This document shows, piece after piece, positions 2,134 to 21,525 of a stretch of 21,525 bases of DNA. The DNA is taken from the IMG/VR virus record IMGVR_UViG_3300034105_002079, positions 1 through 21,525 of that record; one strand, 5' to 3'. The stretch is from a virus. The translations under genes were made by a program, and so were the position numbers. Positions within the stretch are counted from its first letter, which is position 1, and each line of letters starts with the position of its first letter. The notes under the pieces were generated by a model. That model saw only the letters and a list, made by a program, of their open reading frames with translations. It did no database searches and was not told the DNA's origin.

Positions 2134-4116
2134 ATGAAGATATACGATATAACAGGTATAGGGGCAAATCTAACTGGATCGTTCTCCGGTTCTTTTAAGG
2201 AGATATTTACAGGAACAGCAACAACTGCTTCATATGTTCAATACAGTAATGTAGCAAACAAACCTACACTTGTATCGGGATCATCACAAATTACTTATAG
2301 TGGAATATCTAGTAAACCTGCAGGTATAGTATCTGGCTCTAGCCAAGTAGCTGCTTTTGGGTATGCCATTACTGGTTCAAACCAGTTTAAGGCAAGTCAA
2401 GCTATCACTGGCTCTTTAACAGTAACTGGAGATATAGTTGCTCAAACATTAAACGTACAACAAGTAACTAGTAGTATAGTGTTTTCTTCTGGATCAAACA
2501 GGTTTGGAAATAACTCAGGCAATACTCATAGGTTTACTGGTAGTGTAAATATAACTGGTAGTTTAACAGTGAATGGAATAGCAACTTCTGGCACTGTTTC
2601 TGGTACAACCAACTATATAGGTAAATTTACTGGTACTAATACGATTGGAAATAGTCAGATATTTGACAACGGTTCAAACGTAGGTATTGGTACCGCCCTA
2701 CCAAGTGCAGGATTAGAAATCGAAACGGATGGTTCAGTTAAAACCGCACTAAGAGTTACCTCTAATCAGGCATTTAATGCTTCTCCGGTAACAGCCATAA
2801 TGTTTCGTTATAGAATTAGTTCTGGAACTACTATTGGAGGTGCAGTTATAAATGCAGCAAAAGATAACGCTACAGAAAGTAACCAAGCAGGTAATCTACA
2901 ATTTTGGACAAATAACGGAACTACATTAGCTGAACGCATGCGTATCACCTCAGGTGGTAACGTTGGAATTGGTGCCACACCAAGTGCATGGAATACAACT
3001 TCGAGAGCATTACAATTAACTAGTTTTGTATCACTTTCACAACAACACAGTGGTGCATTAAACTTAATGTCATATGCCATTGAAAGTAGTGCAAATAGCT
3101 TTACCTATGGGGATACAGGAGTTTTCCCTACCAGATTAAACATGAACCCAAATGATGGGATAATAACTTTTTCTAATGCTGGAACAGGTACAGCCGGTAA
3201 TGCTATAACATTTACCCCAAGATTAACTATACTAAATAATGGTAATGTTGGTATAGGCGCTACTAATCCCGGGGAGCAATTAGAATTATCCAAAGCAACT
3301 TATCCCACAGTTAAATTAATAGAAACAACCGATAACGCTTCAGGTTATTTTCAATATCATAGTGAAGCAAATGAATTTAGAGTAGTTGCAATTACCAGTC
3401 ATCCATTAATATTTAGTACTACTGATATTGAACGAATGCGCATCACTTCGGGGGGGATAGTTTCTATAAATGGTGGACTAACCACATATCACCAAGTTTC
3501 TATAAAATCAAATAGCACTCAAACTTATGGAGGACTTGCAGTTTACGCAACTTCTGGAGATAGATTTATTAATGTTCAGCACACCGGGACACAAGGTTTT
3601 ATCGAAGTAGATTTTGCGGGTTCATCAGGATTTAGTGATTTAGGATTTAAAACTGGAGGAAATCCGAGAATGACTATCACTTCTGGCGGTAACGTATTAA
3701 TTGGGACAACATCTAATATTGCAAGTTCTAAATTAAGAGTTAGTGGAAATTTACAAATTGATGGTTTCCAAAAAATGTACACCTATTATATTGTTGTAGG
3801 ACCAAACTCCACAGGAACTATTACTATAAGTAGCCCAACAGGTACTAATATGCAAGGCAGTATGCAAGTAATGGCAGGTGGATATGGTAACGGTATAACA
3901 GGAAATATTACGGGTTTATGGATGGTAGGTGGATTATTATTTTTTAACAATGCTTCAACAAGTACTATTACACAAATAGTAAACTCAGTTACTTCAGATG
4001 GAAGTATGAGTTTTCAACGATCGAGTGATCAATATACTGTAAGTTTAACTAATACCGCTCCAAACCCGACCGGAACAAAATCTTTCTATGTATCTGTAAT
4101 TATCAACGGTGAATAA
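2134..4116 (+). CDS. Tail fibre / adhesin-like structural protein B (660 aa)
   Basis: This is a complete paralogue of fibre A. The start gives MKIYDITGIGANLTGSFSGS. Next comes a segment with two SGSSQ units spaced by Gly/Pro-rich turns (about residues 48-72), then the 79-residue block shared with fibre A (about residues 68-146). At least five RMxITSGGNVxIG-type units follow (near nt 2680, 2930, 3220, 3430 and 3665), and then a unique C-terminus of about 110 residues rich in Thr, Ser and Gly from nt 3775. The repeated short strands suggest a fibrous beta-rich shaft, with the unshared end as receptor-binding tip (inference). Unlike fibre A it lacks the YEEGTWTPT motif, so the two proteins share a base and shaft style but carry different tips. 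No Shine-Dalgarno is visible; a TATTTATA box lies 22 bases upstream. Confidence 0.8.
   Translation: MKIYDITGIGANLTGSFSGSFKEIFTGTATTASYVQYSNVANKPTLVSGSSQITYSGISSKPAGIVSGSSQVAAFGYAITGSNQFKASQAITGSLTVTGDIVAQTLNVQQVTSSIVFSSGSNRFGNNSGNTHRFTGSVNITGSLTVNGIATSGTVSGTTNYIGKFTGTNTIGNSQIFDNGSNVGIGTALPSAGLEIETDGSVKTALRVTSNQAFNASPVTAIMFRYRISSGTTIGGAVINAAKDNATESNQAGNLQFWTNNGTTLAERMRITSGGNVGIGATPSAWNTTSRALQLTSFVSLSQQHSGALNLMSYAIESSANSFTYGDTGVFPTRLNMNPNDGIITFSNAGTGTAGNAITFTPRLTILNNGNVGIGATNPGEQLELSKATYPTVKLIETTDNASGYFQYHSEANEFRVVAITSHPLIFSTTDIERMRITSGGIVSINGGLTTYHQVSIKSNSTQTYGGLAVYATSGDRFINVQHTGTQGFIEVDFAGSSGFSDLGFKTGGNPRMTITSGGNVLIGTTSNIASSKLRVSGNLQIDGFQKMYTYYIVVGPNSTGTITISSPTGTNMQGSMQVMAGGYGNGITGNITGLWMVGGLLFFNNASTSTITQIVNSVTSDGSMSFQRSSDQYTVSLTNTAPNPTGTKSFYVSVIINGE
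2335..2571 (+). repeat. Paralogous fibre base module, copy 2
   Basis: Second copy of the 79-residue module, at a constant offset of 2333 bases from copy 1. It includes the shared stretch AQTLNVQQVTSS and the ending FTGSVNITGSLTV. Confidence 0.85.
2930..2960 (+). repeat. 31-base identical fibre repeat, copy 2
   Basis: Identical over 31 bases to 726-756, inside the other fibre gene; the flanking bases diverge at once on both sides. Confidence 0.85.
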
Positions 4117-8135: not shown

Positions 8136-10487
8136 ATGGCACAAGATTTAGGTAATAGTCCAAAACAGCAAGCTGAAGTAATAGCAGAGACGTTATTATC
8201 TGTAGGGGCTAGAATATCCGAAACTATTAAGGATGCTATACAAGATGCAGTAGATGGTGTTGATGCAACAATATATGAGAAACTAGGAAATAGCCTTACA
8301 TCCTCCTTTTCAAAACTAGCTAAATTCTCAGAGGAGGCAGCGAACAATACTTTTAAAATATCAGAAGGGTTGTTAAATTCAGATTCTATATCTAAACAGT
8401 TATTAAGCTTAGAAGAAAAAAAATTAGCCATACAAAGACAGATGAGCTTGGCTAAAGAAATTTTGCAGGAGGATGATATAAATAGGCTTCAAACTGCATT
8501 TGATCAAACTGAGAAAATATTAGAAGTACAAAAAAAGCTTCTTCAAGAAGAAAAAGCTATCACCGATGCTGTAGATAAAAGAGTAGGACTTGTTGGTAAA
8601 CTTGCTGGGGCTATGAAAGCCATTCCAGGCCTAGGCAATGTCATAAATGCAAAAGAGGTAGACGCTGCATTAAGGAAAGCAGCTGTACAACTTGATGAAA
8701 ATGGGAACTTAGTACAAAGCGGTACAGGTAAGTTCAAGATGATGGCGATAGCTGCAAAGACTGTAGGAAAACAGTTTGCAACAGCCATGCTAGATCCAGG
8801 AGTCATAGTAGGTAAGATAGTAGAACAATTCTTTGCAATAAACAAAGCGTCTGTTGAACTAAGAAGATTGACGGGGGATACCGCTGTTAGTTTTAATATA
8901 TTTGCAAATGGAGCAGCATCCTCAGTTCAAATATTAGAAACAGCTGCTGAATTAACTAAGCAAATAGGATTTAATGCTCAAAGTGCATTTTCTCAAGACG
9001 TAATTGCGAATGCAGCCGACTTAAAAGTTGAAATGGGGCTGGCAGCAGATGAGGCTGGCGGTATTGCGATGATGGCTCAAACAAGCGGTAAGAGTGTGGA
9101 TTCTATTACGGATAGCGTAGTGGGCACAACCTCCGCATTTAATAGAGCAAATAGGTCTGCAGTATCTCAGGGATTAGTTCTTAGAGATGTAGCAAAAACT
9201 TCAGATAGTATTAAATTATCGTTGGGTAATAATCCAAAAGCCTTAGCTGACGCAGCATCACAGGCAAAAAGATTGGGAACAGACTTAGCTGGATTAAACC
9301 AAATAGCAACTAGCCTACTTGAATTTGAATCATCTATTGAAGCCGAATTAGAAGCACAACTTTTAACTGGTAATCAAATAAACCTATCTAAGGCAAGAGA
9401 ACTTGCTTTAACTAATGATTTGGAAGGTTTAGGAACTGAAATATTCAAGAATACTGTTGATATAGAAAAGTTCGGCAAAATGGGTAGGCTAGGTCAAGAA
9501 GCTCAAGCAAAAGCTCTTGGAATGACTAGAGACCAGCTTGCTAGAGTTGCTTATTTACGAGCACTTGATAGTAAGATGACTGATGAGCAGGCCTCAGCTG
9601 CTGCCGGAGTTAATGCGGAGGAGATGAAGCGTATATCGGTACAAGAAAATTTTACAGCTGCCTTAAATAAAGTAATGGGGGCACTTGCTCCAATTTTAGA
9701 AATGGTAGGTAATTTATTTTCAATACCATTGTTTGGTCCTATGCTTGCTGGATCTTTATTATTAATACCTGCAATAAGTATTATTAGTCAGGGCTTTATG
9801 GCTATGGCAGGGGCATTAGGTTTTGCAACAGCTGCTAAAGTGGCTAATACTGGGGCAACGGTATCAAATACGGTTGCAAACACTGGTTTAGCAGCTTCTA
9901 ATACAGCAGTGACAGCTTCCTCTGCCCCAGCAGCCGGGGGATTTTCGGCAATGGGAGCTGCTTTGAAAAGCTTTGGAGCAGCGGCGGCAACAGCTATACC
10001 TACATTACTTACCATAGCCGCAGTGGCAGCCGGTATAGGATTAGCATTTGCAGGAGTTGGATTTGCTTTAAAATCTGTACCTGAAATATTAACTTTAATA
10101 ACCCCAGAGAAAGCAGCAGGTATGGTTTTACTTGGTCAAGCATTTGGTGGGCTTGCTTTAGGATTAGCAGCTATTGCAGTTTCAGGATTAGCAGCATTGC
10201 CAGTATTATTAGGTCTTCAAAAATTAGGTGTTCTAGGTGGAGCTATTGCCGTACAAGCAGGTGCATCCCCGGGAGGAGCAGCTATTGCTGGATCGCAGAA
10301 GCCAGTTGAAAGCCCACAGGCACCAGCTGCATCTTTATCATTAGATCCTTTAGTGACTGAAATAAAATTAATGAGGGAAGAAATGACATCTCTTATGAAA
10401 CAAGTTATGGGTAGGGAGATTAAAGTATACCTAGATGGATATTTAGTTGGTCAGGGAACTCAACAGGCTCAAACTTCATCAGGTTAA
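8136..10487 (+). CDS. Tail tape measure protein (783 aa)
   Basis: A long helical protein placed right after the tail assembly gene, the standard position of the tape measure (T4 gp29 role: sets tail length and leaves the tail tube at DNA injection). Residues ~75-145 are charged with heptad-like Leu/Ile spacing (EEKKLAIQRQM, KILEVQKKLLQEEK), suiting a coiled coil. Residues ~519-565 and ~608-708 are strongly hydrophobic, Ala/Gly-rich stretches (SIPLFGPMLAGSLLLIPAIS and several later ones), as in tape measures that enter the host membrane. The C-terminus has MREEMTSLMKQVMGREIKVYLDG, the short strand-and-loop end typical of the family. No lytic domain is visible. It is long for a T4 gp29 homologue (590 aa), predicting a longer tail. 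Confidence 0.85.
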   Translation: MAQDLGNSPKQQAEVIAETLLSVGARISETIKDAIQDAVDGVDATIYEKLGNSLTSSFSKLAKFSEEAANNTFKISEGLLNSDSISKQLLSLEEKKLAIQRQMSLAKEILQEDDINRLQTAFDQTEKILEVQKKLLQEEKAITDAVDKRVGLVGKLAGAMKAIPGLGNVINAKEVDAALRKAAVQLDENGNLVQSGTGKFKMMAIAAKTVGKQFATAMLDPGVIVGKIVEQFFAINKASVELRRLTGDTAVSFNIFANGAASSVQILETAAELTKQIGFNAQSAFSQDVIANAADLKVEMGLAADEAGGIAMMAQTSGKSVDSITDSVVGTTSAFNRANRSAVSQGLVLRDVAKTSDSIKLSLGNNPKALADAASQAKRLGTDLAGLNQIATSLLEFESSIEAELEAQLLTGNQINLSKARELALTNDLEGLGTEIFKNTVDIEKFGKMGRLGQEAQAKALGMTRDQLARVAYLRALDSKMTDEQASAAAGVNAEEMKRISVQENFTAALNKVMGALAPILEMVGNLFSIPLFGPMLAGSLLLIPAISIISQGFMAMAGALGFATAAKVANTGATVSNTVANTGLAASNTAVTASSAPAAGGFSAMGAALKSFGAAAATAIPTLLTIAAVAAGIGLAFAGVGFALKSVPEILTLITPEKAAGMVLLGQAFGGLALGLAAIAVSGLAALPVLLGLQKLGVLGGAIAVQAGASPGGAAIAGSQKPVESPQAPAASLSLDPLVTEIKLMREEMTSLMKQVMGREIKVYLDGYLVGQGTQQAQTSSG

Positions 10488-10738: not shown

Positions 10739-12523
10739 ATGGTTGTTACAAAAATAGTAGACCTAAAAACTAATTTAAAATCTCTTAAGTATGAGAGTGG
10801 TAATGCTCCTTTTGTAACAAAGGACATTAACAACCCCCCTCAAAGCTCAAGAGCATTATCTGAGATTACTAGAAGAGCAGATGATGTAGTTAGGGTTACT
10901 AAAGCAATATTACCTACAAACAGTAGATTTTTAGAAAACCAAGCAAAGCTTGAGCAATTAAACTTTTCAAGGAAAGTAGATGGTATCAAGGTAGCTCAGG
11001 GGAAGACAACTGCGGGTGCAATTATTCAGCAGGTTAAAAACACTGTCGTAAATGTGGCTAAGATAGCCGCAAGTACAATTGCACAAACTGCAGGAGCGGG
11101 TACAGGACTACATGTAGTTAGGGGGTTTGAAAATGCTGATAAAAAATTATACAGCACTCAAGCTTTGGCGGAAGGTAAAATAACCTTTCCTAAGTACAGC
11201 CCGTCTACCGAGCTACAGGGTATAGAAAACTACAGTTTAGTAAACACTAACAACGATAAAAATACATATACCCAAAGAAGCAACACTGCTGTCCCTGGAG
11301 TAACCGCTAATGCAGAAAATAAAATAACCCCTACAGCAAATGAGGTTGTAGAAAATGGTACAGTTAAGTTACAAAACTATAGTCCTATTACTAAATTATC
11401 TTTGAAGAAAGATTACAGTGGGGTAAATGAAGACAACACTTCTAATCCGTATTTAGGAACAACAAACAATAACTTCCCTAACAGAACTTCAGCAGGTGTA
11501 GCAGCTGAGTTGGGAGACAAGGTTCTTGCTCCAAGTCAATCACCAAGTATGATACTTGAGGACTGGGAAGCAAATAGATTTACAAAACAATCTACTTTAC
11601 AAAGTTATACATTACCTAAAGAAAATGAGATTGCTAGAAATCAATTTACTTTAAGTCAAGATATTAATGACCCCGTTGTCAGAGGGTTACCGGAGATAGG
11701 AGCTCAGATGACGCTTAAAGTTAGAGATTTTAGAAAAGATAGACCTGATTCTATATTTTTTGACTACAATAGCCCAACTATTAATAAAGAGCAGAGAGTT
11801 GGTTTAGGTAATAAAGGATATTGGAAAAAGCCAATAGATTACACCGAACCGACACAACCATCTGTTATTGATAGGTTGAATGCAACAGATGTATCTTTGA
11901 ATCAATTAAATGGAGTAGGAGTCGGTGCATCTTCAGTAAGAGATTTAGTTAAATTTAGATTCGAGGTAATAGCTCCTGGCCAGACCCCTAGGTTTCTTTA
12001 TTTTAGAGCCTTACTTGAAAATCTAGATGATAGTTACACAGGTAGATGGTCGGATACTAACTATGTGGGTAGAGGTGATGCAGTAAGAACCTATGAAGGA
12101 TTTAATAGGGACGTATCTCTATCTTTTAAAATAGTAGCTACTACTAGAGATGAAATGAAACCATTATACAAAAAAATGGCATATTTAGCATCAACAACAG
12201 CCCCAACATATGGGGAAGGTGGTAGTTTTATGAAAGGAACTCTTGTTCGATTGACCGTTGGTAGTTATCTTTACGAGGTAGCTGGAACAATGAATAGCGT
12301 AAAGTACAATTGGAAAGAGAATTATCCATGGGAAATTGCAATGCAGAACCCGGACCTAAACATTGATGATGATCAACAAGAGCTTCCACAAATGATGGAT
12401 TGCTCAATAAACTTTACACCAATTCACGATTTTGTACCACAAACAGGATTGTATCATTACATCACATCTCCTCGACTTTCTGGAGGTGCAAAACCATTCT
12501 TTCTATCAGGAGCACAATCATGA
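10739..12523 (+). CDS. Baseplate structural protein, possibly tube-initiator like (594 aa)
   Basis: Residues ~1-140 are helical with a hydrophobic patch (IIQQVKNTVVNVAKIAASTIA) but no clear membrane anchor. Residues ~147-199 and ~207-264 form two diverged tandem units, each opening with a YSP-x-T-x-L motif. The C-terminal ~190 residues (from VKFRFEVIAPGQTPRFLYFR) form a compact domain with GRWSDTNYVGRGDAVRTYEG, GTLVRLTVGSYLYEVAG and INFTPIHDF, resembling the tube-like beta domain of proteins that cap the baseplate and start tube growth (T4 gp48/gp54 role). That assignment is inference from domain style and gene position. The stop overlaps the ATG of the gp53-like gene (ATGA), so the two are translationally coupled. 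Confidence 0.75.
   Translation: MVVTKIVDLKTNLKSLKYESGNAPFVTKDINNPPQSSRALSEITRRADDVVRVTKAILPTNSRFLENQAKLEQLNFSRKVDGIKVAQGKTTAGAIIQQVKNTVVNVAKIAASTIAQTAGAGTGLHVVRGFENADKKLYSTQALAEGKITFPKYSPSTELQGIENYSLVNTNNDKNTYTQRSNTAVPGVTANAENKITPTANEVVENGTVKLQNYSPITKLSLKKDYSGVNEDNTSNPYLGTTNNNFPNRTSAGVAAELGDKVLAPSQSPSMILEDWEANRFTKQSTLQSYTLPKENEIARNQFTLSQDINDPVVRGLPEIGAQMTLKVRDFRKDRPDSIFFDYNSPTINKEQRVGLGNKGYWKKPIDYTEPTQPSVIDRLNATDVSLNQLNGVGVGASSVRDLVKFRFEVIAPGQTPRFLYFRALLENLDDSYTGRWSDTNYVGRGDAVRTYEGFNRDVSLSFKIVATTRDEMKPLYKKMAYLASTTAPTYGEGGSFMKGTLVRLTVGSYLYEVAGTMNSVKYNWKENYPWEIAMQNPDLNIDDDQQELPQMMDCSINFTPIHDFVPQTGLYHYITSPRLSGGAKPFFLSGAQS
11177..11530 (+). repeat. Two diverged tandem protein repeats in the baseplate protein
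   Basis: Residues ~147-199 and ~207-264 of the 594-aa protein share Y-S-P-x-T-x-L followed by an Asn/Thr-rich Y-S-x-V-N segment and end in similar x-K-I/V-x-x-P strings. The match is at protein level only. Confidence 0.5.
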
Positions 12524-12819
12524 TTAAGAGATATAGTACGATACCCATTTTATCGGATGCTGATTCTAAGAAATATAGAAAGCATGTTATTTATCCAGAT
12601 ATTCCTTTAAGTGAGGATGATTTGTATGCAATAACAGTTGTAGGGGATAGATATGATAAATTGGCATATGATTATTATAGTGATACAACGCTGTGGTGGA
12701 TTATAGCGTCTTCAAACCCACAAGCAGGTAGTCATTTAACACCTTTGGCTGGAGTACAAATTAGAATACCTGCCAATCCACAGGCAGCATTAGAGTTATA
12801 TAGAAGGTTAAATTCGTAA
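12520..12819 (+). CDS. 53: Baseplate wedge protein with LysM-like fold (gp53-like, 99 aa)
   Basis: T4 gp53-type proteins join neighbouring baseplate wedges and contain a LysM-like module. Visible here are GDRYDKLAYDYYSDTTLWWIIASSNPQ and a final LAGVQIRIPANPQ, the pattern of gp53 and LysM proteins (an initial YDKLA helix, W-W-I-I-A, then a G-x-x-I-x-I-P strand). The product is shorter than T4 gp53 (196 aa), covering only the LysM-like core. I chose ATG 12520 (MIKRYSTIPIL): it overlaps the upstream stop as ATGA and is preceded by AGGAG seven bases upstream, the only convincing Shine-Dalgarno I see in the window. A TTG at 12400 would need 40 extra residues inside the upstream gene. Confidence 0.85.
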   Translation: MIKRYSTIPILSDADSKKYRKHVIYPDIPLSEDDLYAITVVGDRYDKLAYDYYSDTTLWWIIASSNPQAGSHLTPLAGVQIRIPANPQAALELYRRLNS

Positions 12820-16316: not shown

Positions 16317-17639
16317 ATGGAGTTCATCTTAGAGTCAACTAAGAGCTTATCAGTTCTTGATGAGTACATGTGCTTGCCTACGTTTTTAGGAATAGTTCCT
16401 TTAAATGATAGGTATCACCCCAAATTAAACGGGGTTTCTGCTCTATATCTAGGGTTCAAGGGCTCAAAGGATAGCTTTATAATCCCTATACAGCACTCTG
16501 AGTGCAATAATTTTAGCCTAGAGGAGGTAATTCCACATTTAAAAAGATTTAAAAACCTATATACGGTTTCTAGGAAGGAAGCCCTTTACTATCTAGGTTC
16601 TCAATCTTGCATTGACATTTCATTAATTGCCCTTCTTTTAGAGGGTACTAAATTAGAATTTAGATCTCCAGTATCATCGATAGATTATTTTTATAGGGTT
16701 CATTCAGATTTTTTTCCTATAAATTCTATTATCCCAATTTTAAAATTACACGAGAAGTGGGAACACCTTTTCAATTCAGTAAAGAGGTATATGGGTACAG
16801 AGTTGCCTGAATATTTCAATTTCTACAATACAAAGACTATAAATGTTTATTATCTTCTTGAGCAGTCTGGATTAACCATAACTGACAATTTTTTAGATTA
16901 CTACACCGATATAGATTACAAGTACAATTTATTGGAGGGTAAGATATACACGTGGTACAATCCGTACACGATAACCACTAGGCCATCCAATACTTTTAAT
17001 AGGATAAACTTTGCTGCTTTAAATAAGGAGTCCGGGGTTAGGAATGAAATTGTACCTGAATTTGATTATCTAGTTGAGTTTGATTACGATGGAAGTCATG
17101 TTAGAATTCTGTGTGATCAAATTGGATATGAGTTAGCTTCTGGCCAAGCCCATGAGCAATTGGCCCACTTATATTTTCCCAATCAAAAAATTACACCTGA
17201 ATTATATGAACAGTCAAAGAAAATAACTTTTAATGCTTTTTATGGGAGTATACCAGATAGGTACAAAAATCTTGAGATTTTTAAAAAACTACAGGAGTAT
17301 TTAATTGAGTTGGAGGAAACATATAGTAAATTTGGGTATCTAAATGATTCATATACTGGAAGACCTATTCACATCGAAGGGGATAATCCTTCCATATCTA
17401 AATTGTTGAATTACACGATACAGAGTTTAGAGGCGAGTAGGAATGTGGGAGTGTTGGAGAAGCTACTCAAATACTTAAATAGTAAGAAGAGTAATTTGAT
17501 TCTTTACACTTACGATTCATTTCTAATAGATTTCTCAAAGGAGGATGGCAAAATTGCACTAGAGGATATTGGAATAATCCTATCAGAAAACAATAAGTAC
17601 CCCGTTAAATTTAAATACGGCAAATCCTTAAATCTTTAA
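16317..17639 (+). CDS. Compact family A DNA polymerase (440 aa), exonuclease apparently lost
   Basis: The C-terminal half follows the family A (Pol I/T7) palm and fingers in order. There is a T/R segment TITTRPSNTFNRIN (about 218-231; compare T-x-T-G-R-x-S-S-x-x-P-N-x-Q-N). Motif A is EFDYDGSHVRIL with D256 as metal ligand. Motif B is KKITFNAFYG with K301, F305, Y309 (K-x3-F-x3-YG). A YTGRPIHIEGDN loop and NYTIQSLEAS (365-374; compare N-x-x-I/M-Q-G-T-A-A-D) follow, then motif C, YTYDSFLIDF, with D400. Residues ~38-112 look like a decayed 3'-5' exonuclease fold (GVSALYLGF, FIIPIQH, CIDISLIALLLEG), but the DxE and the N-x3-D motifs are not evident. In motif A the usual Glu is His261, and motif C has Ser401 in place of Glu. 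It is much shorter than Klenow (605 aa) or T7 gp5 (704 aa). Confidence 0.85.
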   Translation: MEFILESTKSLSVLDEYMCLPTFLGIVPLNDRYHPKLNGVSALYLGFKGSKDSFIIPIQHSECNNFSLEEVIPHLKRFKNLYTVSRKEALYYLGSQSCIDISLIALLLEGTKLEFRSPVSSIDYFYRVHSDFFPINSIIPILKLHEKWEHLFNSVKRYMGTELPEYFNFYNTKTINVYYLLEQSGLTITDNFLDYYTDIDYKYNLLEGKIYTWYNPYTITTRPSNTFNRINFAALNKESGVRNEIVPEFDYLVEFDYDGSHVRILCDQIGYELASGQAHEQLAHLYFPNQKITPELYEQSKKITFNAFYGSIPDRYKNLEIFKKLQEYLIELEETYSKFGYLNDSYTGRPIHIEGDNPSISKLLNYTIQSLEASRNVGVLEKLLKYLNSKKSNLILYTYDSFLIDFSKEDGKIALEDIGIILSENNKYPVKFKYGKSLNL

Positions 17640-17682: not shown

Positions 17683-18114
17683 ATGATTGATTTTGATTTA
17701 GAATTTTATGACCCCGAATTGAGTTATATGGACAATAGACTTTTTTGTACTTTTTCAACCGCTGATACTTTAGAATCAACTCTTAGCGATATTCAAAACA
17801 GACACACGATTTTGTACAATAAAATGTTTGTTTTGTACTCTAAAAATGAGGACGAGTTTGCGATTACTTACAATGTAGATTTAGGAAATGTTTCAGATTT
17901 TTTACCCGGAGCTATCTTGGTACATAGAAAAAAAGATACTAAAACCCTCTACACTATAAACGCATTGAATTTGCTCATCAAAGAGCTTAACAATGGCGTT
18001 CTTAACAATAAGTTTCAAATTAAGTGGGAGGATTACAGAAATTGTATTTTGCTCACCAAGGGACCTGAACTGCGTAGGTTGAATACTCAACTTTACAGAA
18101 TAATAGAAATTTAA
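17683..18114 (+). CDS. Hypothetical protein between polymerase and gp32-like SSB (143 aa)
   Basis: An acidic N-terminus (MIDFDLEFYDPELSY) is followed by a mixed alpha/beta sequence with TLYTINALNLLIKELNNGV (about 97-115) and a final TKGPELRRLNTQLYRIIEI. I do not recognise it. In T4 the small translational repressor RegA (122 aa) lies beside the polymerase gene, but I see no convincing RegA match and do not assign it. The upstream TATTTATA box with a 12-base gap suggests late expression, unlike the early or middle expression expected of its neighbours. No signal peptide or membrane segment. Confidence 0.7.
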   Translation: MIDFDLEFYDPELSYMDNRLFCTFSTADTLESTLSDIQNRHTILYNKMFVLYSKNEDEFAITYNVDLGNVSDFLPGAILVHRKKDTKTLYTINALNLLIKELNNGVLNNKFQIKWEDYRNCILLTKGPELRRLNTQLYRIIEI

Positions 18115-18187: not shown

Positions 18188-19015
18188 ATGAATTTAGATT
18201 TAATTCGGAACAAGCTATCCTCCATGAATAAATCAGGAGATGGCGAAAGAGAGAAGATTGACTACGAAGCAATCTTTTGGAAGCCTACACTAGGCAAGCA
18301 CCAAGTAAGAATTGTACCATCTATGTACAGTCCTGATTATCCATTTTCAGAATTGCGGTTTCATTACGCAATTGCTAAGTTCCCAATGATGTCTTTATCA
18401 AATTTCGGTAAACAAGATCCTGTTGAGGACTTTGTTAAGGAATTGAGAAAGACTTCTGACAAGGAGAACTGGTCTCTATCTGGGAAATTGTCTCCCAAGC
18501 TTAGAGTTTATGTACCTGTTATTGTGAGAGGTGAAGAAGCTAAAGGTGTTAGACTTTGGGGATTTGGAACTATAATCCATAAGGCACTACTTTCTTTGGC
18601 AGAAGATGAGGATATTGGTGACTACACTGATCCTATTAATGGATATGATATGATTGTGGAGCAAACTCCAGGAAATCCATATCCTGATACCACCATTAGA
18701 ATCAAACCTAAAATGGTACCTCTTAGCGCTGACCCTAAGTTGGCAGAGATGTGGCTAAAAACTCAGCCTAATCCTATTGAATCCTTTAATCAATACGATT
18801 ATGAATTCATCAAGGGTAAGCTAGAAGCATACTTGGCACCTGAAGGAGAGGCAATTCCAGTGTCAGCACCTGCACCAGTTGTTGAAGAGATGCCCGCTGC
18901 AGCACCTGCTCCATCTTCATTTAAAGTTCAAACTCAATCGAAGGCAACTACCACTTCTAAGTTTGATGATTTATTTAGTGATGATGATGATGACAGTACT
19001 GACTTGCCATTTTAA
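18188..19015 (+). CDS. 32: Single-stranded DNA-binding protein (gp32-like, 275 aa)
   Basis: T4 gp32-type SSB, which coats ssDNA in replication and recombination and works with UvsX and the helicase. The family pattern is clear: FWKPTLGKHQVRIVPS (30-45), PFSELRFHY (52-60), VIVRGEEAKGVRLWGFG (111-127) and NGYDMIVEQTPG (151-162). Where T4 has the zinc-binding CPVC of its OB fold, this protein reads QDPVEDF (76-82), and there is no cysteine at all, so the zinc site is lost. After ~220 comes an Ala/Pro linker (VSAPAPVVEEMPAAAPAPSS) and an acidic tail ending DDDDDSTDLPF, like the tip of bacterial SSB (DDDIPF in E. coli) rather than T4 gp32. UvsX starts 2 bases after its stop, so the two are coexpressed. 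Confidence 0.9.
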   Translation: MNLDLIRNKLSSMNKSGDGEREKIDYEAIFWKPTLGKHQVRIVPSMYSPDYPFSELRFHYAIAKFPMMSLSNFGKQDPVEDFVKELRKTSDKENWSLSGKLSPKLRVYVPVIVRGEEAKGVRLWGFGTIIHKALLSLAEDEDIGDYTDPINGYDMIVEQTPGNPYPDTTIRIKPKMVPLSADPKLAEMWLKTQPNPIESFNQYDYEFIKGKLEAYLAPEGEAIPVSAPAPVVEEMPAAAPAPSSFKVQTQSKATTTSKFDDLFSDDDDDSTDLPF

Positions 19016-19017
19016 TA

Positions 19018-20100
19018 ATGAATAAGACAACAAAAGAAAAAGCTACTCTAAAGGTCCAGAGTAGCTTTAATCTTTCTAACTTTAAAAAGAAGAAAGGTTA
19101 TTCATCCAATTCAGTAAAATTTAAGGACCAGCAGTGGCTACCAATATCTAAAGCATTTCAAGATATTACATCTTTGCAAGGTATCCCTATGGGACATATT
19201 ACTTTGCTTAGAGGTCACTCTGATACTGGAAAGACTACTGCGTTGTTGGAAACTGCTGTTGCGGCTCAAAAAATGAATGTCCTACCTGTTTTAATTATCA
19301 CTGAAATGAAGTGGTCATGGGAACATGCAAAAGAGATGGGATTTAAATTTAATGAGATATTCGATGAGAATACTGGAGAATTAGTGGACTATGAAGGATT
19401 CTTCTTGTACGCTGATAGAGGCACTCTTAACACTATTGAGGATGTAGCTGCATATATGTCAGATCTCATGGATGAGCAAGCTAAGGGTAATCTACCTCAT
19501 GACTTATGTTTCTTTTGGGATTCAATTGGATCGGTTCCATGTGAGCTGTCTGTAAGGTCTCAGAAAAATAATAATGAGTGGAATGCTGGAGCTATGTCTA
19601 CTCAATTCGGTAATAATCTAAATCAAAAGATTCTACTGTCTAGAAAAGAAGGTCAACCTTACACCAATACTTTAGTTGCTATTAACAAGGTATGGACTAT
19701 GAAAGCAGAACATCCTATGGGCCAACCTAAGTTGGAAAATAAAGGAGGTAAAGCTATGTGGTTCGATGCTACTTTGATTGTAACTTTTGGAAACGTAACT
19801 AATTCAGGTACCTCCAAAATTAAAGCTACTAAAAGTGGTAAGCAGGTTGAGTTTGCTAAAAGGACTAATGTTCAGGTGGAAAAGAATCACATCAACGGTA
19901 TTACTACTAGGGGTAAGATTGTAATGACTCCACATGGATTTATAGAGGATTTTCCTAAGGCAATTGAAAAATACAAGACAGAGCATAAGGATAAGTGGTT
20001 GAGTATATTAGGAACTACTGATTTTGATCTTATTGAGGAGGGGGATATGGAAGAGGATAGAATGATTTTTGATTCTGAAGCTATCCATGACTTAGATTAA
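19018..20100 (+). CDS. uvsX: UvsX-like RecA-family recombinase (360 aa)
   Basis: The product is an ATP-dependent strand-exchange recombinase for recombination-dependent replication and repair. Walker A is GHSDTGKTT at 66-74; Walker B is CFFWDSIGS at about 164-172, giving the RecA/UvsX arrangement. TNTLVAINKVW (about 221-231) matches the L2-proximal strand of the family, and GKAMWFDATLIVTF follows it, as in UvsX. The N-terminal ~40 residues are basic and poorly conserved (KKKKGYSSNS), a likely oligomerisation or DNA-binding extension. Length is close to T4 UvsX (391 aa). The ATG at 19018 directly follows the SSB stop, with no Shine-Dalgarno, suggesting reinitiation by coupled ribosomes. A large hairpin lies downstream. 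Confidence 0.9.
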   Translation: MNKTTKEKATLKVQSSFNLSNFKKKKGYSSNSVKFKDQQWLPISKAFQDITSLQGIPMGHITLLRGHSDTGKTTALLETAVAAQKMNVLPVLIITEMKWSWEHAKEMGFKFNEIFDENTGELVDYEGFFLYADRGTLNTIEDVAAYMSDLMDEQAKGNLPHDLCFFWDSIGSVPCELSVRSQKNNNEWNAGAMSTQFGNNLNQKILLSRKEGQPYTNTLVAINKVWTMKAEHPMGQPKLENKGGKAMWFDATLIVTFGNVTNSGTSKIKATKSGKQVEFAKRTNVQVEKNHINGITTRGKIVMTPHGFIEDFPKAIEKYKTEHKDKWLSILGTTDFDLIEEGDMEEDRMIFDSEAIHDLD

Positions 20101-20202: not shown

Positions 20203-21228
20203 ATGAGTTATAAGAATCTGTTAAATAAAATTCAAAAGAGAGAGGTTAGGAAATTAAATGATCATGTTCTGCTTATTGATGGCATGAATATGTTTATTCG
20301 TAATTTCGCAATGGTTAAAGCTTTAGATCCAGAGGGTAACCACATTGGAGGGTTACAGGGGTTCTTAAAATCCTTAGGCTCTATGGTTCGATTATTTGAC
20401 CCTACACGAGTTATCTGTGTATTTGATGGTAAGGGGTCAACAGTTAATAGAAAGAGCATAGACCCCAACTATAAGGCTCAGAGACCTACTACAAGAATAA
20501 CTAACTGGGGGCTATTCGAATCCAAAGCGGAGGAGATGGAATCTATACAGGGACAAGTAGAAAGACTTCAAGATTATTTAAAATGTCTACCGGTATCTGT
20601 TTTAGATATAGAAAAGTATGAGGCTGATGATATTATTGCATTTTTATGTCAAGAATATGCAAACAGAGGTAGGAAATCTACTATAATATCTACAGATAAG
20701 GATTTCCTTCAGCTAGTAAGACCTGGGGTGGAGGTATACAATCCTATTAAAAAGGAGTTATACGATAGTAGAAATGTTTTAGAAGCATTACAGGTTCACC
20801 CTAAGAATTACAACATAGTAAAAGCAATCGCTGGGGATGCCTCAGATAATCTAAGGGGGGTTAAAGGAGTAGGAGTAAAGACGTTAATTAAAGAATTCCC
20901 AGAGCTAGTAGACAATCCTGAAATAACTTTAGACTATTTGTACAATATTAGTGAACAGCGATTGGATTTAAAGAACATTTATGCTAAATTGATCCATGAA
21001 TGGGATTTAGTGAAGAGGAATATGTCTTTAATGGATTTACAGGACACCATACTTACTGAATTTGAAATCGACCAAATGTTTGAAATCCTTTCAGAGCCTA
21101 ATTTCAAGCTACACCACGGTGCATTTTTAAGATTAATAGAGATAGATAAAATCCAAGGGCCTAGTACAAAAAACGAAAGCTGGTTGGAATTATTTGTCGA
21201 TCTAACAATATTTGCAAAGAACAAATAA
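20203..21228 (+). CDS. 5'-3' exonuclease / RNase H of the FEN family (341 aa)
   Basis: A flap/5'-3' exonuclease (T4 RNase H, T5 D15 and Pol I N-domain relatives) that would remove RNA primers and flaps on the lagging strand. Metal-binding acidic residues fall in the family pattern: LLIDGMNMFIRNF (D26), CVFDGKGSTVNRK (D75), YEADDIIAFL (E140, D142, D143), ISTDKDFLQLV (D165, D167) and GDASDNLRGVKGVGVKTL (D212, D215), the last being the helix-three-turn-helix DNA-binding element. Length (341 aa) is close to T4 RNase H (305 aa). The start ATG at 20203 follows an AT-rich leader with no Shine-Dalgarno. The helicase gene follows 12 bases after the stop, so the two share a transcript. With a family A polymerase lacking its own 5' nuclease domain nearby, this protein would supply that activity (inference). 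Confidence 0.92.
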   Translation: MSYKNLLNKIQKREVRKLNDHVLLIDGMNMFIRNFAMVKALDPEGNHIGGLQGFLKSLGSMVRLFDPTRVICVFDGKGSTVNRKSIDPNYKAQRPTTRITNWGLFESKAEEMESIQGQVERLQDYLKCLPVSVLDIEKYEADDIIAFLCQEYANRGRKSTIISTDKDFLQLVRPGVEVYNPIKKELYDSRNVLEALQVHPKNYNIVKAIAGDASDNLRGVKGVGVKTLIKEFPELVDNPEITLDYLYNISEQRLDLKNIYAKLIHEWDLVKRNMSLMDLQDTILTEFEIDQMFEILSEPNFKLHHGAFLRLIEIDKIQGPSTKNESWLELFVDLTIFAKNK

Positions 21229-21240
21229 AAAATAATAGTT

Positions 21241-21525
21241 ATGACTTTAAATTCGCTTCTACAGTATGGAAAAGGTTTCCAGCTAAAAGTTATCAATGCA
21301 TTGTTGACCGACAAGTCATTTCTCCTTAATGTGAGAAGTGCTATGGAGGTAGACTACTTTGATTCAGACTCACATAAATGGATATTACACAATATTTTAG
21401 AATACTTTGATAAAAGGCATGCAACAATTACATTAGAGGTACTAAAAGTAGAACTTCAGAAAGTTGATAACAAATTACTTAAAGTTGCAATAAAAGAGGA
21501 GTTGAAGAATGCGCTAGATTCTTCT
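21241..21525 (+). CDS. 41: Replicative helicase, gp41-like N-terminal domain (3' partial)
   Basis: Ninety-five codons are visible before the window ends. MTLNSLLQYGKGFQLKVINA, then LLTDKSFLLNV, YFDSDSHKWILHNILEYFD and LEVLKVELQKVDNK match the N-terminal helical domain of T4-like gp41 (DnaB-family) helicases, which associates with the primase and forms the hexamer collar. The ATPase domain lies beyond the window and cannot be checked here. The start is 12 bases after the exonuclease stop. Its place next to SSB, UvsX and the FEN nuclease fits a replisome cassette; in T4 genes uvsX, 40 and 41 are also adjacent. Confidence 0.85.
   Translation, partial: MTLNSLLQYGKGFQLKVINALLTDKSFLLNVRSAMEVDYFDSDSHKWILHNILEYFDKRHATITLEVLKVELQKVDNKLLKVAIKEELKNALDSS

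Follow-up and report, generated by a model that had tools for sequence, protein, structure and literature searches.

The mini polymerase encoded in the window (the whole stretch of viral DNA analyzed here, 21,525 nucleotides) is probably an accessory second polymerase of a T4-like replication and recombination module: a compact, seemingly catalytically intact, proofreading-dead member of the divPolA1 family that would work beside a proofreading replicase encoded elsewhere. T4-type phages possess the textbook replisome, in which DNA is synthesized by one family B polymerase. Among the T4-like phages of marine and fresh waters, a large group has a compact second polymerase, of family A, fixed beside gp32, UvsX, FEN, and gp41 irrespective of the main replicase. 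Its job, once known, would bear on the division of labor between phage polymerases and could help to explain the exchange of family A and family B replicases, and the constant 143-amino-acid (143-aa) partner encoded next to it provides a concrete handle for testing. The features of the locus are listed in Table 1.

Table 1. Features of the mini polymerase and its gene neighborhood (positions in the window; residue numbers are those of the mini polymerase)
Feature	Position	Strand	Basis
Mini polymerase, divPolA1-type family A DNA polymerase, 440 aa	16317..17639	+	ATG start; ORF call, homologues, profile, fold
N-terminal exonuclease-like domain without the catalytic acids, residues 1-135 (approximate limits)	16317..16721	+	Predicted strands and helices; acid conservation
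Short helical segment at the place of the Pol I thumb, residues 141-195	16737..16901	+	DSSP on the model; truncated thumb described for the family in the available text of PMC11348598
Arg222, T/R segment	16980..16982	+	165/165 and 67/67 rows
Motif A, Asp256 (Pol I D705) to His261 (place of Pol I E710)	17082..17099	+	Alignments; Klenow HMM alignment
Motif B, Tyr297, Lys301, Phe305, Tyr309	17205..17243	+	Alignments; Klenow HMM alignment
Asn365-x3-Gln369	17409..17423	+	Both row sets
Motif C, Tyr399-Asp400-Ser401 (Pol I HDE)	17511..17519	+	Alignments; Klenow HMM alignment
143-aa ORF, constant downstream partner	17683..18114	+	Co-occurrence scans; model
gp32-like ssDNA-binding protein	18188..19015	+	Pfam gp32, E 5e-8; phrog_1192
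UvsX/RecA-like recombinase	19018..20100	+	phrog_97, E 2.1e-13
FEN-type 5'-3' exonuclease	20203..21228	+	PF02739, E 1.6e-33
gp41/DnaB-like helicase, start only, cut by the window end	21241..21525	+	Complete in L005; immuto homologue annotated as replicative DNA helicase

The original prediction of a 440-aa family A polymerase was made from the letters of the window alone. The open reading frame (ORF) exists, with an ATG start on the plus strand, and its assignment to family A was borne out by the predicted fold and by profile matches. The window protein on its own had no match in Pfam or among PDB sequences and a single chance-level match in PHROGs; its homologue in Flavobacterium phage immuto, gp1, to which it is 39.5% identical over 440/440 residues (E 8e-88), passed the cutoff of Pfam DNA_pol_A (42.7 bits, E 4.6e-11), and a profile built from five mini polymerases recovered Klenow (E 6.2e-5). 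No family B profile of Pfam was matched, the relatives matching DNA_pol_A instead, nor was the zinc ribbon or the Toprim profile of gp61/DnaG-type primases. An identical copy of the gene is present in one further contig (L004) and a 98% identical copy, with 20 synonymous and 10 nonsynonymous changes, in another (L005). The dN/dS ratio between the window and L005 was 0.122, and over 439 close pairs of mini polymerase genes the median was 0.089 and the maximum 0.229. By these ratios, the gene is under purifying selection.

Structure prediction, which had been put forward as one means of checking the assignment, returned a family A polymerase fold. The AlphaFold2 model (55 sequences; pLDDT of 91.1, pTM of 0.89) comprised an exonuclease-like domain, a short helical segment, the palm, and the fingers. 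Its top Foldseek match in the PDB was Mycobacterium smegmatis Pol1 (E 4.8e-16), and VIA-align superimposed it on Bst Pol I (3hpo) with a Z score of 26.8 over 411 aligned residues at an rmsd of 4.3 Å. In the model, two long helices are all that separates the exonuclease-like domain from the palm. The exonuclease half had been called a relic; it did lack the acids of the DxE and N-x3-D motifs, but it was not shapeless, since strands 22-28, 40-47, and 53-57 were predicted at high confidence. Within residues 1-150, solely positions 62, 100, and 146 were acidic in at least 90% of the rows, and the DxE of the first strand was not conserved. Three such positions are too few for a DEDD quartet, and the proofreading acids thus appear to be lost. 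The claim of an enzyme without evident proofreading therefore holds as far as conserved carboxylates go, and the alignment together with the model supports a 3'-5' exonuclease domain that is retained in fold and inactivated.

All of the motif residues named from the sequence (Arg222, D256, His261, K301/F305/Y309, N365-YTI-Q369, and D400-S401) were found in place. We take Arg222 to correspond to Pol I R668 and Asn365 and Gln369 to N845 and Q849; the numbers E710, R754, H881, and E883 are likewise the Pol I numbering that we assume. Conservation was counted in two sets of rows. In the first, which combined 161 IMG/VR loci, the window, and three phage records, R222, D256, D258, H261, Y297, K301, F305, Y309, Y399, and D400 were present in 165/165 rows and Q369 in 164/165, an invariance that is partly built in, because the rows came largely from scans with motif A or C in the search pattern. 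The second set (67 rows) consisted of loci reached via the 143-aa ORF plus five genome-scan rows (L195-L199), whose patterns again contained the motifs, and the count was limited to rows longer than 380 aa; here, R222, K301, F305, Y309, Q369, Y399, and D400 were present in all 67 rows, D256 and H261 in 66, Y297 in 64, and D258 in 50. The two sets are not independent samples, since many contigs are common to both. The catalytic aspartates, on whose conservation in homologues the original prediction had been staked, are therefore kept in every row with one exception. The exceptional row, L204, lacks D256 and H261 by in-frame loss of motif A: its gene (20-1237) encodes a mini polymerase minus about 30 residues, reflecting either natural inactivation or an assembly artifact.

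Alignment to Klenow by HMM placed H261 at E710, Y297 at R754, Y399 at H881, and S401 at E883. The unusual histidine of motif A was thus upheld, in 165/165 and 66/67 rows, while the full-length PolAs of the same phages kept Glu at this position in 8/8 cases. The serine at the place of the HDE glutamate is present in the window protein, but most relatives carry Ala there. With E710 changed to His, R754 to Tyr, H881 to Tyr, and E883 to Ala or Ser, chemistry or substrate may differ from those of Pol I. These departures are no argument for a dead enzyme, because the Tt72 phage polymerase is active with Ser at the E883 position, and its mutants S616A and E389A (E710 position) are reported to retain 76% and 35% of activity, respectively, in the available text of PMC9324360. 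A catalytically intact enzyme is what we propose from conservation, selection, and predicted fold.

Judged by sequence, the window protein is a member of divPolA1, a family already published in 2024 (Yutin et al., PMC11348598) from 14 phages, one of them immuto, and the novelty implied by the original prediction falls accordingly. As far as the available text of that article goes, divPolA1 proteins have a truncated thumb and an inactivated exonuclease and keep the palm residues; replication genes are conserved downstream, and a regular DNA polymerase (DNAP) of family A, B, or C is encoded elsewhere in the genome, in mixed neighborhoods. The window protein displayed full-length homology to immuto gp1, the catalytic palm residues D256, K301, and D400, an inactivated exonuclease domain, and replication genes downstream; a regular DNAP was found in the 98% identical contig. 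Of the features of a canonical proofreading PolA, it had the family A fold and lacked the DEDD residues and the Glu at E710. In one scan, we confirmed at least 578 stretches encoding divPolA1-type members. Relative to the available text of PMC11348598, our analysis adds a third clade, the invariant His, the 143-aa partner, and many more members. A search of the open-licence literature for a biochemical study of divPolA1 turned up the preprint and the published family description and no such study.

The neighboring genes read from the window as gp32, UvsX-like, and FEN were confirmed, and a gp41 homologue is present, cut by the window end. Enough downstream DNA (at least 6.5 kb) for a count of gene order was available in 68 of the 161 loci. 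The order mini polymerase, 143-aa ORF, gp32, uvsX, FEN, gp41 was seen in 34/34 loci of clade A and 31/34 loci of clade B, with the other three clade B loci deviating at FEN or gp41 alone; it stayed constant while the main replicase differed between clades. Three genome-scan loci showed less than the full cluster: L197 and L198 are cut short, and in L200 the mini polymerase gene alone was recognized. The 143-aa ORF lay beside the mini polymerase gene in all 34 clade A and all 34 clade B loci. Of 50,697 phage records, six contained the 143-aa ORF, and these were also the six with a mini polymerase gene; the mini polymerase gene was found in 56/56 loci that were reached via the 143-aa ORF and had at least 1.7 kb upstream. 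The 143-aa protein (model pLDDT of 85) had no match with a convincing E value in Pfam or PHROGs, and its model matched no PDB fold with an E value below 0.1. It is a possible partner of the polymerase.

Elsewhere in the window, the fiber-like ORFs at 89-1846 and 2134-4116 each contain MRITSGGNVGIG or a near variant more than once, as if fiber modules had been duplicated. The tape-measure-like proteins of the window (8136-10487) and of L005 (1860-4190) differ strongly in their first part within near-identical surroundings, which has the look of a recombined segment. The ORF at 12400-12819, as called from a TTG codon, runs in a different frame over the last part of the gene before it; translation more likely begins at an ATG inside the ORF, close to where this overlap ends.

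No full PolA was seen within the 21.5-kb window, which is a genome fragment; the contig of the 98% identical copy also encodes a 776-aa PolA with an exonuclease domain, from which we presume that the window phage has one of its own. In immuto, the full PolA is gp72 (777 aa), whose gene adjoins GroES/GroEL. D32-x-E34, N102-x3-D106, and Y200-x3-D204 were invariant in 8/8 full PolAs. Among clade A contigs, a full PolA was present in 11/30, including all seven longer than 76 kb, and PolB in 0/30; among clade B contigs, PolB was present in 9/25, including all five longer than 80 kb, and a full PolA in 0/25. A second polymerase was absent from view in 19/30 clade A and 16/25 clade B contigs, all of them incomplete, and every examined contig longer than 80 kb contained a full PolA or PolB. 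PolB was also found in Mel-JY01 and LR756508. The profile of Pol III alpha (PF07733) matched 1 of 48 records, namely, LR756508 (L008; 484 kb; record positions 47415-48068 and 260623-266900), which has a mini PolA, PolB matches in two frames, and this Pol III alpha match and so possibly three polymerase types; its mini protein, used as the query, had no relative in the viral contig set. PolC, which the available text of PMC11348598 reports in some divPolA1 phages, was not seen in the contigs examined here.

The third clade (clade C), encountered via the 143-aa ORF and genome scans, has D-I-S-A-Y-H or its like as motif A. In the one clade C contig whose replicase was looked at (G059, 93 kb), PolB (L281, 7560-10460) spans two reading frames and a gene for an RFC-like clamp-loader ATPase lies nearby, as does an ORF whose sequence we take to be GroEL-like. 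The gp45 sliding clamp profile PF02916 matched 0/17 records and likewise none of the control genomes. A clade C clamp loader, compared by phmmer with immuto outside 100001-110410 and with smaller parts of LR756508 and Mel-JY01, had no match. A tree of 44 rows, with the third clade left out, separated the mini proteins cleanly by replicase type; LR756508 and Mel-JY01 formed long branches, and the window protein sat on its own branch with L005 inside the marine clade. Recent duplication of the full PolA was rejected as the origin of the mini polymerase, as hhalign (probability 1.4%) indicated no close kinship, though the two may share a deep origin.

These distributions bear on the two roles that the original prediction had offered, main replicase of a hybrid replisome or secondary error-prone enzyme. 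A hybrid T4-like replisome in which the mini polymerase serves as main replicase, with repair left to the full PolA or PolB, is quite improbable. The mini polymerase gene does sit in the conserved replication cluster, while the regular DNAPs occupy mixed neighborhoods (available text of PMC11348598) and the full PolA of immuto adjoins GroES/GroEL; however, the enzyme would have to copy genomes of about 160-190 kb without proofreading and with a compact thumb region in the model, the PolB of clade C lies near the clamp-loader gene, and a separate proofreading-type PolA or PolB accompanies it in all the large clade A and clade B contigs as well as in immuto, Mel-JY01, LR756508, and G059. The same co-occurrence supports a secondary enzyme, for which "error-prone" is a label that we infer from the absent proofreading motifs. 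The authors of PMC11348598, in the text available, regard the conserved context as pointing to involvement of divPolA1 in replication and find what the regular DNAPs do "less obvious," a view under which the mini enzyme could have a larger role. A catalytically dead fold kept as a scaffold or regulator is very improbable: the active-site departures from Pol I and the loss of motif A in L204 would fit it, but that loss may be an assembly or natural deletion, no other row, in any of the three diverged clades, lacks either catalytic Asp or the motif B Lys, and the Tt72 mutants described above keep activity.

Within an active second polymerase, the question is which step it serves. There is some chance, though clearly below even, that it is a specialized translesion or recombination polymerase, extending UvsX D-loops in a role like that of Pol theta rather than filling Okazaki gaps. 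The gp32 and UvsX genes next to it in 68/68 testable loci, the lack of proofreading, and the Pol theta structures among the Foldseek matches are consistent with such a role, but these matches were no better than those to Klenow or Bst, and the neighborhood cannot discriminate, because FEN and gp41 are there too. Altered sugar choice, that is, a ribonucleotide-accepting, primase- or RNA polymerase-like enzyme arising from replacement of the steric-gate Glu by His, is improbable. The near-invariance of His261 beside the Glu of the full PolAs argues for it, as does the description of E710 as a block against ribonucleotides (available text of PMC9324360); against it, a bulky His could be the gate itself, and the structural matches listed are DNA polymerases. 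A primase role had been considered for want of a gp61-like gene in the cluster and was set aside as unlikely, since immuto and some relatives have a separate gene for a zinc-ribbon/Toprim primase outside the cluster, so that none is missing there. Among 15 records, the zinc ribbon was matched in 3 (below the family cutoff) and Toprim in 5, the 10 records with no Toprim match including several fragments.

We therefore return to an accessory second polymerase as the probable role. The mini polymerase would carry out short-patch synthesis on gp32-coated templates. Primer-gap filling or recombination extension is suggested by FEN, gp41, and UvsX in the same cluster: it might fill gaps after primer removal by FEN, which would amount to Pol I activities divided among separate proteins, or it might extend recombination intermediates made by UvsX. 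The adjacency of FEN lends weak support to the gap-filling step. With no proofreading and apparently little thumb, distributive and less accurate synthesis would be expected; enzymatic activity, low processivity, and the choice of intermediate are what we infer from these features. More tentatively, and rather unlikely as a whole, divPolA1 and the 143-aa protein could form a two-subunit polymerase in which the small protein substitutes for the thumb or acts as a processivity factor, the rebuilt nucleotide site (His for Glu710, Tyr for Arg754, Tyr for His881, Ala or Ser for Glu883) gives a distinct substrate choice, and the enzyme is dedicated to one step (primer gap or D-loop) and stays fixed while the main replicase swaps between families A and B.

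Far-T4 phages are described as having PhoH near structural genes together with queuosine genes (available text of PMC4360716). Both are also present in immuto, and by this analogy the window phage probably belongs near the far-T4 group. In immuto (L001), the region 18607-37015 contains queuosine-pathway genes and a DpdA-type DNA transglycosylase gene, whose presence suggests 7-deazaguanine-modified DNA that its polymerases would have to copy.

Compared with known systems, the protein is closest to the divPolA1 of immuto, which is likewise compact, with an inactivated exonuclease, retained palm residues, replication genes downstream, and a second regular DNAP; the window protein differs in being a new member that shares a separate branch with L005, and its regular DNAP is visible in the 98% identical contig only. 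It resembles the Pol I large fragment (Klenow, Bst, Taq) in whole-chain fold and in the order of motifs A, B, and C but has 440 instead of about 580-605 residues, no exonuclease acids, and the four substitutions at E710, R754, H881, and E883. The full-length PolAs of the same phages (immuto gp72 and the L014 ORF) are also of family A, yet they have 776-777 aa, an intact DEDDy exonuclease, and Glu at E710 and are encoded elsewhere in the genome. Rhodothermus phage RM378, considered as a possible split-polymerase precedent, was rejected as such; it carries PolB. The divPolA2 of barbaviruses is, like the mini polymerase, a divergent exonuclease-less PolA beside a regular PolB, but its other N-terminal domain and variable neighborhood set it apart by description (available text of PMC11348598). 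The group 2.2 jumbo phages, with a minimal split Pol III alpha beside PolB, provide a precedent for a stripped-down second polymerase next to a T4-type replicase, although of an unrelated polymerase fold (available text of PMC7824862).
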